From Dehalobacter restrictus DSM 9455 (GTDB lineage: Bacteria > Bacillota > Desulfitobacteriia > Desulfitobacteriales > Syntrophobotulaceae), in contig NZ_CP007033.1 in NCBI RefSeq assembly GCF_000512895.1, positions 2,591,001 to 2,655,000 on the forward strand: DNA of 64,000 nucleotides. The letters run 5' to 3'. Made by a program: the position numbers and the translations under genes. A model generated the notes under the pieces. That model had not been told where the DNA came from and ran no database searches. It was given only the letters and a program-made list of their open reading frames with translations. Shown piece after piece: positions 2,522 to 39,989 of this stretch (within the stretch, counting starts at the first letter, position 1; every line of letters begins with the position of its first letter).

Positions 2522-3856
2522 CTATCTTTTTCCTTGCCCTTTACCGTTATGTCCGTTATTTGAAGAGGTATTCGTGACTGTGTTCTGAATACTTTGAGCA
2601 TTGACGGTTCCACCACTTTCATCACTTGTGCCATCCACTGTTGTTTCATCCGAAGCAGGCTGGTCATCGGCTATGGCAGTCTGATCGCCAGTAACCGTTA
2701 CATCCTGATTATCTACAGTCGTTGCATCCTGTTCGTCCCCTGCTTCCAGGCTATCTTCCTGGTCGCTCACGGCTTGGCCCTTATTGGCCTTCTTATATTC
2801 TTTTATGTTTTGGGTTTGCTCTTTTAGGACTTCTTTCGTTTCCTTATTCGTCTCTACTTTGATCTTCTGAACATCTTTCCTGAGCTCCTGCATGTCGTTT
2901 TTGTACTGTTCAGCCTGTTCGACTTTTTCCAGGGCAACGGCAATGGCAGCCTCGTCACCTGAAGCACGGGCTTCACCCAACTCTGCTTTGGCCGCTGCAA
3001 ATTGCTGCACCGCATCCCCATAGGCTTTTTTGGCAGCCACATAAGCTTTGATCGCAATGGTGTTTTGAACTTCGGCTTTGATGATATTCTGCATGATCTC
3101 AGCCTGATCTTCTGTCAGATTGCCGCTGATTTTTAAGACGACTTTATCTGCATCGCGTTGAACAAGCTCAATGCTGGCAAGCAGATTGCTGATCACCGTA
3201 TTCTCTTCTATGTCAGTTGCTGCCGTGTCCTCTGCGACTGTTTCATCTGTGGAAGTCGTGACGGTCCCATCATCCGCAGCAGCGTCTGTAGCCGTCGTAT
3301 CCGTACCTTCAGCTACTTCGTTGTCTTCGATCATCTGCTGTACCTGGAAGTTGGCTTTCTTTATCGTATCCGAGTACGCTTTCAGAGCCTGTTCCATCAA
3401 ATCCAACTGGTTTTGTTCGGACATGATTTCCGCTTCGGCGAGCCTTTCATTGGCAAACTCAACGAGCAGTTCCGCTTTTCCTTCATCAGAAAAAGTTACA
3501 GCAACCTGGACACTTTCAATCATCTGTTCAAGTGAATAGAGCCAGCTGTCCGGCGTTACGCCGGCTTCATCTGCTGTCGAGGCCTGGACGGTGGAATCCG
3601 TTATTGTGGAGTCGGTTGTTACTGCATCTGTTGTTGTAGTATCAGTCGTCGTTAAATCGGTTGTTGCCGTGTATGTTGTCGGGTCAGCAGCTGTTGAATC
3701 TGTAGCGGGCTCTGTGGGCGTACCAGGAGTACTCGTTGAAACATCCTCGATAACTGTGGTTCCATCCGTGGTTGTTTCAGCAAATACACAGGTTGGAGCG
3801 ACCGCAATGATTAGAAAAACACAAAGAATTGAAACGAGAATCTTCTTACGGATCAT
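2522..3856 (-). CDS. Secreted Thr/Asp-rich DUF5667-type protein, c-di-GMP controlled
   Basis: I chose the ATG at 3856, because it follows AAAGGGGTAG and gives a clean signal peptide (MIRKKILVSILCVFLIIAVA, cleavage near CVFAE). A frame extending to 3889 would start inside the riboswitch. After a Thr-rich linker there is a helical domain of DUF5667 type (starting PDSWLYSLEQMIESVQ), then a further helical, Lys/Glu/Gln-rich part and an Asp/Thr/Ser-rich disordered tail ending in a basic GHNGKGQGKR. It is probably an extracellular or wall-associated protein. Expression is under a c-di-GMP-I riboswitch at 3862-3952 and a good promoter at 3966-3995. Exact function is unknown. Confidence 0.75.
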   Translation of the reverse strand: MIRKKILVSILCVFLIIAVAPTCVFAETTTDGTTVIEDVSTSTPGTPTEPATDSTAADPTTYTATTDLTTTDTTTTDAVTTDSTITDSTVQASTADEAGVTPDSWLYSLEQMIESVQVAVTFSDEGKAELLVEFANERLAEAEIMSEQNQLDLMEQALKAYSDTIKKANFQVQQMIEDNEVAEGTDTTATDAAADDGTVTTSTDETVAEDTAATDIEENTVISNLLASIELVQRDADKVVLKISGNLTEDQAEIMQNIIKAEVQNTIAIKAYVAAKKAYGDAVQQFAAAKAELGEARASGDEAAIAVALEKVEQAEQYKNDMQELRKDVQKIKVETNKETKEVLKEQTQNIKEYKKANKGQAVSDQEDSLEAGDEQDATTVDNQDVTVTGDQTAIADDQPASDETTVDGTSDESGGTVNAQSIQNTVTNTSSNNGHNGKGQGKR

Positions 3857-3861
3857 TCTAT

Positions 3862-3952
3862 CTACCCCTTTCGGTAGCCCGGCTGTCATAACCTTTCGGT
3901 GTTAGACCCGTGGCTTTGCGTCTCCGTCTTTCGACGGATTTGCCATTATCGT
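3862..3952 (-). ncRNA. c-di-GMP-I (GEMM-I) riboswitch
   Basis: On the minus strand the sequence contains the GEMM-I core: GGCAAA, a stem closed by a GAAA tetraloop (CCGTC-GAAA-GACGG), GACGCAAAGCC, then GGGTCTAA. A second arm carries the receptor-like GACAGCCGGGCTACCG. The order and the invariant bases match the Vc2-type aptamer as I know it. The 3' end runs into the GGGG ribosome site of the gene starting at 3856, which suggests control at translation. Whether c-di-GMP turns the gene on or off cannot be read from sequence alone. Confidence 0.88.
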
Positions 3953-3965
3953 TTTGGCTGAGGCC

Positions 3966-3995
3966 ATTATAGTACAGAATTACTTTGAAAATCAA
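3966..3995 (-). promoter_or_regulatory. Sigma-A-type promoter of the riboswitch transcript
   Basis: On the minus strand TTGATT (3990-3995), an 18-bp spacer and a perfect TATAAT (3966-3971) lie directly upstream of the riboswitch core. Transcription would begin about 10 bp before the aptamer. Confidence 0.8.
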
Positions 3996-4027: not shown

Positions 4028-4053
4028 TAAAAAATGAGACTTTCGTCTCATGG
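4028..4053 (-). terminator. Terminator of the ABC export operon
   Basis: On the minus strand the stem ATGAGAC-GAAA-GTCTCAT is followed by TTTTTTAT. It lies 138 bp after the permease stop at 4191. The stretch between them shows no gene. Confidence 0.85.
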
Positions 4054-7334: not shown

Positions 7335-8084
7335 TTATTTTTTTAATATTCTTTCCCTGTGGTTAAGCCTGTAACTATCACCGTCCATATCAAATATTTC
7401 ACATTTGTGCATCAGCCTGTCCAGCATGGCTGCGGTTATTACCGGATCACCCATAAATTCTCCCCATTCTACAAGTCCTTTGTTTGATGTAAGAATGATG
7501 GATGTCTGCTGGTACAGCTGGTTTACTACCCCAAACAGCAAGTTTGCCTCATTTCTGTTTACCGGCTGAAATCCAACCTCATCAATGATGACCAATTCGG
7601 CGGCATAGAGTCTCTTTAGTTTGTACTTGCCCTTTACGGATATCTCCTGAGTTTTTAAGGCATGGATCAATTGATCCATATGGATGAATATTACTTTGTA
7701 GCCAGCATTTACTGCCGCAATTCCCAGCGATACTGCCAAGTGGGTTTTCCCAACGCTGGGCGGGCCTAAAAACATAATGTTAAATGCACTTTCCAGCCAG
7801 GTTAGTTCCTGTAACTGTACCATTTGCTTTTTGGTTACACTGGTCTGAAAAGCGAAGTCGAACTCTTCTATGGTTGCCATATAGGGGAATCCTGCGATTT
7901 TCAGTCTTTTTTCTCTGGCTTTATCCCATCTGGCCTGGCGTTCTTCAGCAAGCAGCATGTTTAGTGTCTTGAGCGTTGACCAATCTTCCATTTGAGCTTT
8001 TTCCATGATTTTTTCCAGGCCCTGGGAGGCTTTCTTTAGCGATAAGACGGACAATTGTTCTTGTACTTCCTGCAGGAGGGTCAT
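7335..8084 (-). CDS. istB: IS21-family helper ATPase IstB
   Basis: The 249-residue product is a DnaC/DnaA-like AAA+ protein that selects targets for the IS21 transposase. It has Walker [10 protein letters not shown], Walker [10 protein letters not shown] and the sensor region [14 protein letters not shown], with the usual IstB length. Its ATG overlaps the istA stop codon (8081-8084), the standard IS21 arrangement. The gene itself looks intact. Confidence 0.93.
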
Positions 8085-9142
8085 TGTGAGTCACCCCCCT
8101 TCGTGAACCGGGCATACTCGGATAACGGCCTTTTCTTGGTATTCATGTAGGTTTTTAGTAAAGTGACTTTAGGATTCTGGCTTACTTTCTCTTGTTCTAT
8201 CTGAAGGTTGGCTTCAAAATATTGAGCAGCATTGCGGAATTCTACTGCAGAAAAAAGACTATGCATCAGGCAATATTCCAGAGCTTTTTTGACTGTTGAT
8301 TCCGTATGGGTCGAAATTGTTTGTTCCATCAGGTTGAATTGGTCCCTGGCATACCTGGATTTTAAATAACGGATCTGGGTTAGGAAAATACAGGCATCCT
8401 CGCTTGAACCCAGCTTTTCAAGAAGATTATCTTGTAAATCGTCAAGTTTCTTAGTGTTATCCCGTTTATGGTTATTGTTTTGTACTAATTGCCCCTTGCT
8501 CTTTGAAATCTTATGTTCGGCGATAAGATATCCGTCAAAATCATCCCGGATTTTAAGGCTGTCGCCTTCTATGTCCAGGGTTACTTTCCGGCCTGGTTGG
8601 TAGGTTCCAAGAGGCAGCGTATACCGGTTCCCTTTGTAAAATATGGTATTGTTCTTATGCACATCTCTTGTTAGAATGGACTCATAAGATTTTATTGTTT
8701 GGGGTACCGGTTTTAGGAATAGTCTTTCTTGCTCAAAGACTTCTGCCGGTACTTTTTTTATTATGGAGTGAATTTTGGCGTTGCCGGTTCTTTCCAGCCA
8801 TTCGCTAAAACTCTCATTCCACATATCTATCTCTACAAATTGACGGTTCTTGGCAAAACCGTTTTTAAAGTATTTGACGGTTGCTTCAATTCTACCCTTG
8901 CTTTCAGGGTCGGCCCCGCGACAGAGATAGACTTCAAATCCGCTGGCTAACCTAAACTGTTCAAATTCTCGGGTGAAGATAATGTCACCATAGTTTTCAT
9001 CGACTGCCAGTAACCGGTCCTGATCAAAAACAAGTTCTTTTGGCATTCCACTCAGGGCTTCAAAACATTCCTGTAACACGTCCCATTTTCTATTTAGAGT
9101 GCTGTATTCGGTGGCCGCTTTTGCTGCATTTCTATTGGCCAT
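8081..9142 (-). pseudogene. istA: IS21-family transposase IstA, N-terminally truncated
   Basis: The frame encodes 353 residues, shorter than the ~500 usual for IstA. It begins within the terminal repeat (MANRNAAKAATEYS) and joins directly to a mid-protein segment. It reads through the second catalytic aspartate region (KELVFDQDRLLAVDEN) and the catalytic glutamate region (CRGADPESKGRIEATVKYFK) to the normal C-terminal Mu-type domain. The N-terminal helix-turn-helix and the first catalytic aspartate are missing. I infer a deletion of roughly 450-600 bp between the element end and the gene body. The remaining frame is open. Confidence 0.82.
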
Positions 9143-9371
9143 TTTTGCTGTATTTTATTATACCGCTAACACCTTTAAAGTCAGCTGGGCTTTATCTAAG
9201 TCCGTAGATAGTGATTCCGTATCCAATACTGCCATAATCTGACCTGCTTTCACCTTATCACCAACGTTGACACGAATTTCTTCAACAGGATATGTAACAC
9301 TGGAACAAACGTTCATTGTTTTGGCACTATAAATTGTCCCTGAGTAAGCGTCAAACCCATTCAGACGTGAG

Positions 9372-9656
9372 CTACATGAAGTCAGGCTCATCTACTCCAA
9401 GAAGATCGCACAGAGCATTGTTAGCCATTATCCTAAAATCATCATCAGATATGGTGTTAGCTTGAGCATATTCGAATACATTATCGACAGTGGTAACGAA
9501 TTTTCGCGCTAAACGAGAATCCTCCTTTTTCATCTTTGGAAAATGCTCAATAACATAGCCCGAATAATCTATTTCGAAGAGATATCGTGATATCTTTCCA
9601 TCTGCAAAATCGGAGATAAAGTCTATCATAAACGCCGTATGTTTTCCAACCTTCAT
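9372..9656 (-). CDS. Small IS66-associated accessory protein
   Basis: A 94-residue protein starting at an ATG that overlaps the tnpC stop codon by one base (TGATG), so the two are coupled. It has no membrane segment and is rich in charged residues, with ADGKISRYLFEIDYSGYVIE followed by a helical part and an acidic C-terminus. It lies inside the IS66 ends and so belongs to the element, although most IS66 members have only three genes. Function unknown. A GTG at 9671 is an alternative but less likely start. Confidence 0.6.
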   Translation of the reverse strand: MKVGKHTAFMIDFISDFADGKISRYLFEIDYSGYVIEHFPKMKKEDSRLARKFVTTVDNVFEYAQANTISDDDFRIMANNALCDLLGVDEPDFM

Positions 9657-11256
9657 CAGTCTTCCTCCCACACATATTTTTCCGGACTTGCGTTACCAAG
9701 CTGCGGGGTGAATACTTTCTTCGGCAAGGCTGCACTACCAGGTAAAAAGTCTGTAATTTCAGATATGTAACCTGCTCTTCCTAAGTTAGGGGCATTTGTA
9801 AAAATCCACGTTAAATATTCAAATGGATTCAAGCCATTTTCTCTTGCACTCACAATCAGGCTGTAATAAATGGCACTGGCCCTGGCACCGTTTGGTGTGT
9901 TAGTAAAGATCCAGTTCTTTCGACCGATTACAAAAGGTTTAATACTCCGTTCCGCACGGTTGTTTGAAATTTCAAGACGTCCGTCCAGCAGGTATCTCTC
10001 AAGATATTTTTGTTGGGACTTAGCATAATGTAGCGCTTTACAAGAAGGGTGTTAGGCAAAACAGCAAGCCCATTGATCCAATTGTAAAATTCATCAAACA
10101 CAGGCCCTGATAGGCGTTTACGCTCTTGAAGGCGTTTATCCGGGGCAAGGGAAGCAAACTGTTTTTCAAGGTGGAACAGTCTGTCTAAGTAAGCAACACC
10201 CTTTGCCGCATTGGACTGTGGTTGTTTTTCCTTGGGCAGGGTTTTAAAGGCATCGAAAAACTTCCGCCTAAGATGTGCCAGGCAGCCCACAACAATGATG
10301 TTTTTAGGAAGCTTATGATACCCTTCGTATCCATCTGTGTGAAGGTATCCTTTAAAATCTTTCAGAAATTTTTCAGGATGGGTATGTTTTCTGTCGGGCT
10401 TATAGTCATAAATTACAATCGGGTGTAATGTATCTCCGCTGGTACGATACAACCACATGTAACTCTTTGACTGCGCCGTCTTTCCCGGTTCTTTCAACAC
10501 TTGTAAGGTAGATTCGTCTGCATGCAACACTTCATGCTCACATAATCGTTGTTTCATCTCTTCATATATCGGTTCCAGCCAGTTTTCACTGGCCTTGATT
10601 AACCAGTTTGACATCGTCTGCCGGGAAAGCAGGATGCCTTTTTGTTTCCACTCTTGCTCCTGTCGGTATAGTGGGGACGCCATCATGAATTTCTGTATCG
10701 CGATATGGGCTATTGTCTCGGGGGATGCAAATCCGCCTTTAATGACAGGTTCCGGCATATCTGCTTTTATGATAGGAACATGTTCGGCAGTTCCTTCACA
10801 ATGACGGCAGGAATAAATATGCCGTACGTGCCGTGTAATGATTGCTTTGGCAGGAATGACCTTTAATTCTTCGCGAGTTTCCCTCCCCATCGTATGTAAC
10901 TGACTGCTGCAATTCGGGCAGATACAATCTTCTGCCGGAAGCGTGTGTTCAATTACCTCAACAGGTAAATCCTTTGGCAATTTATCCGTTGTGAGGCGTG
11001 TCCGTTTGCGATAATGCGCCTTTACCTCAGCAAGCTTCGGTTCCGGCACGGTCATATCGGCATTTGATTCGGCCTCGTTGAATATGAGCAGCTGAATACC
11101 GTCAGTCTGTTCACTTGATGCGCCAAATTGTTTATGCTTTGCAAGGCGGATCTGTGACATAAACCACGCGACTTGCTGTTCTAATTCAGCAATTTTGCGG
11201 TCCTTTTCTTCAATTATTTCAAGCAGTTTTCCTGCTGAAGTTTCTTGCGTTTTCAT
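9656..11256 (-). pseudogene. tnpC: IS66 transposase TnpC, frameshifted
   Basis: The first part (11256 to about 10040) has the coiled-coil leucine-rich start, the zinc-binding region (CICPNCSSQL, CRHC) and the catalytic aspartate regions (LHADEST and HTDGYEGYHK). Near 10041 one base appears to be missing: the frame turns to nonsense, while the next frame continues with GKALHYAKSQQKYLE and then NNRAERSIKPF, which holds the catalytic glutamate. The C-terminal tail runs to the stop at 9656. The enzyme therefore lacks its catalytic Glu unless frameshifting repairs it. Confidence 0.88.
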
Positions 11257-11331
11257 AAGTAAATCATACCAGAAAAACCGCGAAAAAGCTAGATTTCATG
11301 CGGTTTAAAGCACTCTTCCAAGATAAATATT

Positions 11332-11682
11332 TTAAGAGATTTGCCGCTCGAAAACTTCTTCCCGTTTGAGTTTTTTCTCCAGTTTCGCACCTTCGATAAG
11401 ATAAGATAATTCTTTGGTTTCAAGAACCATGGTGGCACTGTCTCCCTTTGCTGGCCAGCGAAAATGTCCGCGCTCCAGACGCTTGAAATACAACCAGAAT
11501 CCGTCGCCGTCCCATTCCAGAATTTTTATTCTGTTCCGATGACGGTTGCAGAACACGAACAATGCTTCAGAAAACGGATCGAGGGAAAAGTCGTCTTTAA
11601 CCAGCGCCATGAGCCCATTGATAGATTTTCTCATATCGGTATGCCCGCAGCAGATGTACACGGGTTTGTCATTGAATCTCAT
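11332..11682 (-). CDS. tnpB: IS66 family protein TnpB
   Basis: A 116-residue product typical of IS66 Orf2, with CCGHTDMRKSINGLMALV near the N-terminus, FVFCNRHRNRIKILEWDGDGF in the middle and the usual KRLERGHFRWP. Needed for transposition in this family, mechanism unclear. It begins directly at the end of tnpA (shared base at 11682). Confidence 0.92.
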   Translation of the reverse strand: MRFNDKPVYICCGHTDMRKSINGLMALVKDDFSLDPFSEALFVFCNRHRNRIKILEWDGDGFWLYFKRLERGHFRWPAKGDSATMVLETKELSYLIEGAKLEKKLKREEVFERQIS

Positions 11683-12035
11683 TACAGCATCCTCAATATG
11701 CGGCAGACTTTTTTCAGAAGTTCAGGATCTGTATGTGCATCCACGGTAACGTGACAGCCACCGACTTCAATATCCAGCGTTGATTTCACTTCTTGACCTT
11801 GGGAAAGTTGCATCCATCCTTCCGGGACACAGCTTACGACGGTTTCTTCCTTCCGTTCTGAAAGTTCCATACATGCAGCCTTTCGTAACTGTCGTTGCCA
11901 ATAAAAGTATGCATGCCTACTTATTCCTTTCTCCTGGCAGAAATCGTTAATGCTCTTGCCGCTGCATTGTCGTTCCTGTATCACCTGCATCCACTGTGAT
12001 CGTCGGTACGCTGCTGTGACTTTTTGTATATCCAT
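11682..12035 (-). CDS. tnpA: IS66 family protein TnpA
   Basis: A 117-residue product with a helix-turn-helix (SGKSINDFCQEKGISRHAYF) followed by YWQRQLRKAA, typical of IS66 Orf1. It is the first gene of the element, 121 bp inside the right end. Confidence 0.9.
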   Translation of the reverse strand: MDIQKVTAAYRRSQWMQVIQERQCSGKSINDFCQEKGISRHAYFYWQRQLRKAACMELSERKEETVVSCVPEGWMQLSQGQEVKSTLDIEVGGCHVTVDAHTDPELLKKVCRILRML

Positions 12036-38612: not shown

Positions 38613-39989
38613 TTACTCGAGGGAACTGAGGGGTCTTAAGGACGTATCGTTTATCCCCCTTTGCTCCGCAAACGAATTATAAGCCAGACCCATACAAATT
38701 GCAAAAAAAGTCATCAGCTGCAGATTGTAAAATATCCCCGCCATGATGTTAAACACAAAGATGGACGGCAGTACTGCGGCATACGCTGCCATAAACTGCA
38801 TCGGCTGGCTGAATGCGATCCCCCGTCCAGAGGCAGCAATCTTAGCGCGAAGGTTTCTGATACCAAGAATAAACGGGAGCAAAAAGAAGCTCAGATAGAG
38901 CGCCAGCCCGAAAAAACCGTACCTTCTGGCATACAGCGCATATTCATTGTCTACAAGTGTTGTCATTACGTATTTCTGCGTACCCCAGCCAAAGACCGGA
39001 GAATCCCAAATGCTGCCGATTGCCTTTCCCCAGCGGTCCAGGTGCCCCTGGAAAGAAGTGCTGTTGGAAAAATCCAACCCTTCCTGCAGCCTGTAGAAGA
39101 AATCACCTGAAGCCGTCAGGAAAAGAACTGCTGTCAGCACAAACAACGCCGCTATTTTAATCAGGACCTTTTTATTATGCCGGTGATAGACAAAAGCCCA
39201 AATGCTTAAAATCAGAAAAAGCAGCCCAATGCCGGCCAGAGCCGTCCGGGATATCGTCAGGAATTCCAGTTTGATCACAAAGCCGACCAAAATAAACAGC
39301 AGGACCGTAAATTTTCCGTGATCTTCACCGAAATAATAGCGTACTGTCAGATAAGCTAGCGTCATCACAGTAAATATCCCGAAGAAATTCGGGTTGTCAA
39401 AGGTGCCCTGCACCCTGGCCGGATTGCCGACCAAAAGCAGCTGCCAATGCTGCTGGTCAAAATAGGGCGACAGCCAGGTATTCATATTCAGCACGTTGAA
39501 ATGCTGCCCCCAGCCGAAAATAATCAGAAAAGCTAGGCCTCCGAGGAAAGCCTTGCCCAGGAAGTCAAATTCCTCTGTACGCAGATCGATGGATAAGGCC
39601 AGCGTTACGGCCAGATAATATTTACAGAATGTCACCAGTTCCATGACATCCCGGAGACCATAATAACCTGCTCCTTTGATGATCACACCATAGATGTTGG
39701 AAATGGCGTAAGAGAATACGAGCAAGATAAAGATCAGCAGAATCCACTTATGTTCTTGTTTGCGTTTTAACAACTGCTGTTTTTCTTCAGGGCTGAAGCG
39801 GAATCCTTTCGCTGCAAACAGCAGGATGTTCAGGCCAAAGGTACCGAAGAGCAGCAGCTCGTCCAATCGAATATTAGGAAGAGAAGGATGAATAGGAAAT
39901 GAAGGCAGGATCATTGCTGAGAGCATGGTCATCGCCAAAATAAAAAGCCTGGTATCATTCCTTCTCGTAATGCCGTTATTCCAAAACAT
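38613..39989 (-). CDS. Second O-antigen polymerase/ligase-family membrane protein
   Basis: The ATG at 39989 with AGGAGGCAT is preferred; the frame extends into a palindromic repeat to 40073, which would add a non-native N-terminus. About 458 residues with ~11 membrane helices and a loop with DSPVFGWGTQKYVMTTL of Wzy_C type. With two such genes in the cluster, one may polymerise and the other may transfer glycan to a protein or to the wall. No Wzz length regulator is seen. Confidence 0.82.
   Translation of the reverse strand: MFWNNGITRRNDTRLFILAMTMLSAMILPSFPIHPSLPNIRLDELLLFGTFGLNILLFAAKGFRFSPEEKQQLLKRKQEHKWILLIFILLVFSYAISNIYGVIIKGAGYYGLRDVMELVTFCKYYLAVTLALSIDLRTEEFDFLGKAFLGGLAFLIIFGWGQHFNVLNMNTWLSPYFDQQHWQLLLVGNPARVQGTFDNPNFFGIFTVMTLAYLTVRYYFGEDHGKFTVLLFILVGFVIKLEFLTISRTALAGIGLLFLILSIWAFVYHRHNKKVLIKIAALFVLTAVLFLTASGDFFYRLQEGLDFSNSTSFQGHLDRWGKAIGSIWDSPVFGWGTQKYVMTTLVDNEYALYARRYGFFGLALYLSFFLLPFILGIRNLRAKIAASGRGIAFSQPMQFMAAYAAVLPSIFVFNIMAGIFYNLQLMTFFAICMGLAYNSFAEQRGINDTSLRPLSSLE

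Follow-up and report, generated by a model that had tools for sequence, protein, structure and literature searches.

A c-di-GMP-I riboswitch before a secreted DUF5667 protein gene, most likely a translational ON switch, and its two leader types within one genus

By analogy, the nearest tested precedent for the locus described here comes from Bacillus thuringiensis, where Bc2 RNA, a class I riboswitch equipped with an antiterminator, acts as an ON switch before the collagen adhesion protein gene cap (PMC4933901). As at the studied locus, the c-di-GMP-I aptamer of Bc2 stands ahead of one gene for a surface protein. Its sign is the one predicted here, and its terminator/antiterminator resembles the leaders of three relatives from the same genus (G003, G005, and G006). 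The studied leader differs in having no terminator, in using the Shine-Dalgarno sequence as the predicted switching strand, and in preceding a gene for a DUF5667 protein instead of a collagen adhesion protein. Bc2 is also a closer precedent than the class I riboswitches of C. difficile, which are described as transcriptional OFF switches (PMC11477304). As in the studied genome, many switches there occupy one Firmicute genome, some of them before secreted or surface proteins. The first-pass annotation of this DNA had stated that c-di-GMP controls surface proteins in C. difficile in the same way; the analogy is loose because the switches there are transcriptional OFF switches. As a caution, in the B. 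thuringiensis RNA Bc1, c-di-GMP changes the shape and hardly alters expression (PMC11218506). According to the rule of Barrick and Breaker, a start codon within 15 nt of the aptamer marks direct translation control (PMC2258182). A search of one literature library found no paper on DUF5667 and none on c-di-GMP riboswitches together with Dehalobacter.

The riboswitch-gene unit and other riboswitches of the genome

The window, that is, the whole 64-kb stretch of DNA that was analysed, contained the following elements at the locus.

4034..4051, minus strand: intrinsic terminator with a 7-bp stem and a T run, from a terminator scan
3966..3995, minus strand: sigma-A-type promoter TTGATT-18-TATAAT, 10 of 12 consensus matches
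3870..3954, minus strand: c-di-GMP-I aptamer (RF01051), 92.1 bits, kept in five genus members
3865..3871, minus strand: Shine-Dalgarno sequence AAAGGGG, assigned from the sequence and from a context resembling that of orthologues with a terminator in the leader
2522..3856, minus strand: gene for a 444-aa secreted protein, from a DUF5667 match, orthologue alignment, and structure prediction

The terminator (4051-4034) ends an upstream MacB-type permease gene with MacB_PCD and FtsX domains and separates it from the riboswitch unit. Transcription is predicted to start at the A seven bases past the promoter (+1, about 3959), and the four genus relatives have similar promoters as judged by eye. The aptamer lies on the strand of the gene in its 5' leader, and is directly upstream in the four relatives as well. 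It ends at 3870, 13 nt ahead of the start codon (ATG at 3856), and the Shine-Dalgarno sequence at 3871-3865 is 8 nt from that codon. The promoter at 3995-3966 and the contiguity of aptamer and ribosome site were as the first-pass annotation had read them. A start at 3889, inside the aptamer, was given in the ORF list and was rejected; the G003 and G005 orthologues begin at the residue equivalent to 3856, which is almost certainly the true start. Near the locus, window positions 7335-12035 hold an insertion-sequence-like gene cluster (IstB-like ATPase with integrase, and IS66-like TnpB/TnpC; by eye, from the ORF list). A search of a plasmid collection gave no match.

The Rfam match to RF01051 (c-di-GMP-I) at 3954-3870 covered the full model (1-87) with 92.1 bits and an E value of 4.4e-17, against a gathering cut-off of 35 bits, and was the sole above-cut-off Rfam match in the window. 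When Vc2 numbering was mapped by hand onto the covariance-model alignment, the ligand-contact bases were all canonical (G20 at 3944, A47 at 3917, and C92 at 3874). The GUCGAAAGAC loop and the receptor helix of the GAAA tetraloop/receptor fit the model with no broken pairs. The core is fully canonical, and its score is near the top for the class among the matches listed. The c-di-GMP-I-GGC variant (RF03167), which has G at the A47 position, was rejected, as the studied aptamer has A there and scored lower with that model (76.3 bits). The presence of the c-di-GMP riboswitch and gene pair, already called at first pass, is certain, and we infer that the aptamer binds c-di-GMP in vivo.

The genome, a single contig of 2,943,336 bp, had 14 RF01051 matches including the studied one. 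It also had 16 GGDEF and five EAL domain matches, indicating that c-di-GMP signalling is present. The other riboswitches precede genes for a GGDEF-HD protein, an HD-type protein, a Golvesin_C protein, other secreted proteins, and NhaB antiporters. In a simple T-run hairpin search of the 160 nt after the aptamer, a terminator was found for 10 of these 13, with one doubtful (L021 at 1953978, a weak distal hairpin); the same test found none within 160 nt past the studied aptamer.

L021 comprises two near-identical aptamers 105 nt apart (1953978 and 1953873, minus strand) before a gene for a 698-aa secreted protein, and a third copy lies nearby at 1951645. The flanks ACUUAU and AUAAGUUUUUU could lengthen P1 into a terminator, and the aptamers could be tandem OFF switches. 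Canonical c-di-GMP-I riboswitches with terminators were also seen at L015, L016, and L020 (430779, 16365, and 283996) and at L121 and L122, followed by genes for sigma-region-4 proteins or by excisionase-like or integrase genes of mobile-element type, with no obvious target. The L016 version also occurs in G003 and G004, and pemK RNA (RF02913) matches fall within L016 and L020.

In 5/5 genus members, NhaB Na+/H+ antiporter genes are preceded by divergent RF01051 aptamers of 50-57 bits.

960025-960116 of the genome (G000), minus strand: NhaB-linked divergent aptamer L023 (RF01051)
39866-39957 of the genome (G000), minus strand: NhaB-linked divergent aptamer L024 (RF01051)
In relatives: NhaB-linked divergent aptamers L114, L115, L116, and L117 (RF01051)

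In these aptamers, G20 is replaced by U, GACGC(U)AAAG contains an additional U beside A47, and C92 is followed by A. Their altered pocket, together with a terminator and one gene family common to all of them, suggests a variant with a changed ligand or affinity; the class II model (RF03170) did not match them. Two weak RF01051 matches, L025 (2323876-2323961, plus strand) and L119 (37 and 36 bits), have largely lost the pocket and have the same GACGCUAAAG feature, and the next gene encodes another ion-transporter-like membrane protein.

The secreted protein and its pairing with the aptamer

At its N terminus, the 444-aa protein has a signal peptide that ends in VFA-E. A variable linker rich in Thr and Asp leads to DUF5667, and another linker separates this domain from a short beta pair, after which come a long helical hairpin (aa 249-359) and a tail ending NGHNGKGQGKR. 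DUF5667 (PF18915) matched aa 99-190 with 85.9 bits and an E value of 2.8e-24 (Pfam gathering cut-off 27 bits), and it was the only Pfam or NCBIfam domain above cut-off. Both the signal peptide and the family assignment proposed at first pass held. Besides the domain that defines the Pfam family, the protein has a further helical region, extended linkers rich in Thr and Asp, and a basic tail. AlphaFold predicted a helical protein with a mean pLDDT of 57, in which the helical hairpin was of high and the Thr/Asp-rich linkers of low confidence. The structural neighbours of this low-confidence model were generic helical hairpins with Z of at most 8.6 (colicin receptor-binding coiled coil, BAR, and Vipp1), and a sequence search of solved structures gave nothing beyond chance. 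No sortase, SLH, CWB2, LPXTG anchor, or adhesin domain was found with Pfam and NCBIfam. Judged only from export, composition, and c-di-GMP control, the product is probably a cell-envelope or matrix-associated protein of the sessile state. The general adhesion or matrix idea is plausible, and a role as an adhesin is only a guess.

Conservation of the aptamer residues had been set beforehand as a check, together with a search for the same pair in relatives. The aptamer was kept, directly upstream of the DUF5667 gene, in 5/5 sampled genus members. The orthologues of G003, G004, and G005 are 77-79% identical, and in G006 the gene is degraded, with only about the first 100 codons retained after the aptamer. 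In these relatives, CWB2 cell-wall-binding protein genes precede the DUF5667 gene (L028, L029, and L035; from Pfam in G003 and G004, by eye in G006), and in the window a MacB-type ABC operon occupies their place. G004 additionally has a frameshifted fragment of a second DUF5667-gene copy (L038, G004:C2 398634-398890) about 9 kb upstream of the intact gene.

DUF5667 was found in 33 of 62 genomes of the class. Rfam scans of ~1.5 kb on each side of the best-matching homologue per genome detected a c-di-GMP-I-type riboswitch in no genome outside the sampled genus except G044, and a class-wide DUF5667-c-di-GMP regulon was not supported; for second copies, pairing was checked among the matches listed. 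Near the homologues of other genera of the family (G007, G008, G009, G010, and G020) there was no Rfam-level riboswitch. In G044, from a neighbouring family, a c-di-GMP-I-type match (RF03167 model, 63 bits) lies about 110 nt before the DUF5667 gene; the two may have been paired independently and with a different platform. At this site (L082, G044:C177 1296-1371; genus g15, family f2) the riboswitch is followed by GGGGGGUUUUUUU, and an RsgI-like ORF lies upstream (by eye). The aptamer-DUF5667 pair is mainly genus-specific.

Expression platforms and regulatory sign

The leaders of G003, G005, and G006 carry a terminator and antiterminator. Downstream of the aptamer, G003 and G005 have GGGUAAC...GGGUACCUGUUCC...GGAGCAGGUAUUUUUUU, and G006 has a comparable element. 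After the aptamer of the window and of G004 comes only GAAAGGGGUAGAUAGAAUG, with no terminator (the SD type). GGGUA directly 3' of the aptamer is invariant in 5/5 genus members, and the remaining platform diverges. In the terminator types, GGGUA was computed to pair with UACCU of the terminator 5' arm as an antiterminator (-6.6 and -11.3 kcal/mol) or, in a mutually exclusive way, with UUGCC of the aptamer 3' strand; the antiterminator helix excludes the terminator and the aptamer-3'-strand hairpin alike. Transcripts of intermediate length folded with the antiterminator. The minimum-energy folds of full-length leaders contained the terminator in both states, indicating that the switch must be kinetic (co-transcriptional). 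With ligand bound, the aptamer strand would be kept in place and GGGUA released, so that read-through would be favoured and the switch would be ON.

In the window, a hairpin was predicted between the aptamer and the ribosome site.

3862..3877, minus strand: predicted switching hairpin CUACC-GAAAGG-GGUAG, -5.9 kcal/mol alone

In it, the Shine-Dalgarno sequence is paired with bases of the aptamer, A91-C93 among them. At low c-di-GMP, A91-C92-C93 would pair with GGU at the Shine-Dalgarno end, and the resulting CUACC/GGUAG hairpin would hamper ribosome loading. At high c-di-GMP, C92 would contact the ligand, the aptamer would close, and the Shine-Dalgarno sequence would be freed. The same GGGUA strand, once released in the terminator-type relatives, would form the antiterminator, so the sign would be the same. 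Opening the Shine-Dalgarno sequence of the window and G004 was computed to cost 3.4-4.0 kcal/mol in the free state vs 1.1-1.9 kcal/mol in a bound-like state (for the window, 3.7-4.0 vs 1.3-1.7 kcal/mol, 2.0-2.7 kcal/mol cheaper), a small and model-dependent gap in which the bound-like state is a hand-made folding constraint that still lets the Shine-Dalgarno sequence pair weakly with the start region.

We hold with moderate confidence that a single secreted DUF5667 protein is controlled by the riboswitch at the level of translation, and that the switch is most probably of the ON type. Translational control fits because the ATG lies within 15 nt of the aptamer (PMC2258182), and this leader has no terminator within 160 nt, unlike 10/13 other riboswitches of the genome. 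The ON sign is likely, if unproven, since the free-state hairpin occludes the Shine-Dalgarno sequence and binding is predicted to release it, and since Bc2 provides a class I precedent for this sign ahead of a surface-protein gene (PMC4933901). For the studied leader, both sign and mechanism are what we infer from these points.

A translational OFF switch, which we consider rather unlikely, would have the ligand-bound aptamer, with its last conserved bases touching the Shine-Dalgarno sequence, block the 30S subunit and open at low c-di-GMP. Such blocking is conceivable because the Shine-Dalgarno sequence begins at the aptamer 3' end; the ATG, 13 nt from that end, is also inside the 15-nt rule (PMC2258182), and the C. 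difficile class I switches are OFF, though transcriptional (PMC11477304). However, it is the free-state hairpin that occludes the ribosome site, with release predicted on binding, the antiterminators that accompany the same gene in terminator-type orthologues are of the ON type, and the CCUC able to pair with GGGG (about 3963-3960) is upstream of the predicted +1.

It is improbable that the leader is decaying, with an aptamer that binds c-di-GMP and has become a weak or near-constitutive switch after terminator loss. The small predicted energy difference, the absence of the terminator from the window and G004 only, the degraded gene of G006, and the Bc1 precedent of a shape change with hardly altered expression (PMC11218506) would agree with decay, but the core is fully canonical with a score among the best of its class in the matches listed, and two species hold the SD-type leader with 94% identity over 3967-3870. 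Finally, although the GEMM-I fold is shared by cGAMP riboswitches and c-di-GMP-I aptamers, the former typically have A at position 20 and the studied aptamer has G, making it very improbable that it senses a different dinucleotide such as 3',3'-cGAMP.

Origin and meaning of the two leader types

The AAAGGGGTAGATAGAATG of the window resembles the AAAGGAGTAGAAAAATG before terminator-type genes with a score of 11, the best of 74 control start sites reaching 9, and the riboswitch-free homologues of G009 and G010 have similar GAGTAGAAA contexts. Both results fit a deletion that joined the aptamer to a native Shine-Dalgarno sequence. In the rpoB tree, (G006,(G004,(window,(G003,G005)))), the window and G004, the two with the SD type, are not sister lineages, and the SD type is not a clade. 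A single terminator loss was rejected on this separation, and two losses, a sorted duplication, or recombination would be needed.

Sliding identity revealed that the window allele is a mosaic, in which the leader and the first half of the gene are closest to G004 and the 3' part to G005. Identity with G004 was 94-99% over 3967-3870 and 3567-3368, compared with 85-88% for G003 and G005, and identity with G005 was 92-100% over 2985-2686. This mosaic favours recombination between lineages as the simplest account of how the leader types may have moved. A sorted duplication is possible, as G004 holds the fragment of a second gene copy. Our fuller account, put forward tentatively at a little short of even confidence, is that there are two exchangeable leader types, in which excision of ~100 nt fused the aptamer to the native Shine-Dalgarno sequence, GGGUA serves as ribosome site, the ON sign was kept, and recombination spread the result. 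If this is true, the GGGUA strand turned from an antiterminator into a ribosome site with the sign unchanged.

The genus offers natural pairs in which the same aptamer and gene are joined by either a transcriptional platform or a translational one, and with them a direct test of platform conversion and of the survival of regulatory sign, and this platform swap is the part most worth a specialist's time. The pair also puts a secreted protein from an unstudied family under the control of c-di-GMP, which suggests an attached-state programme in a Dehalobacter-like bacterium.
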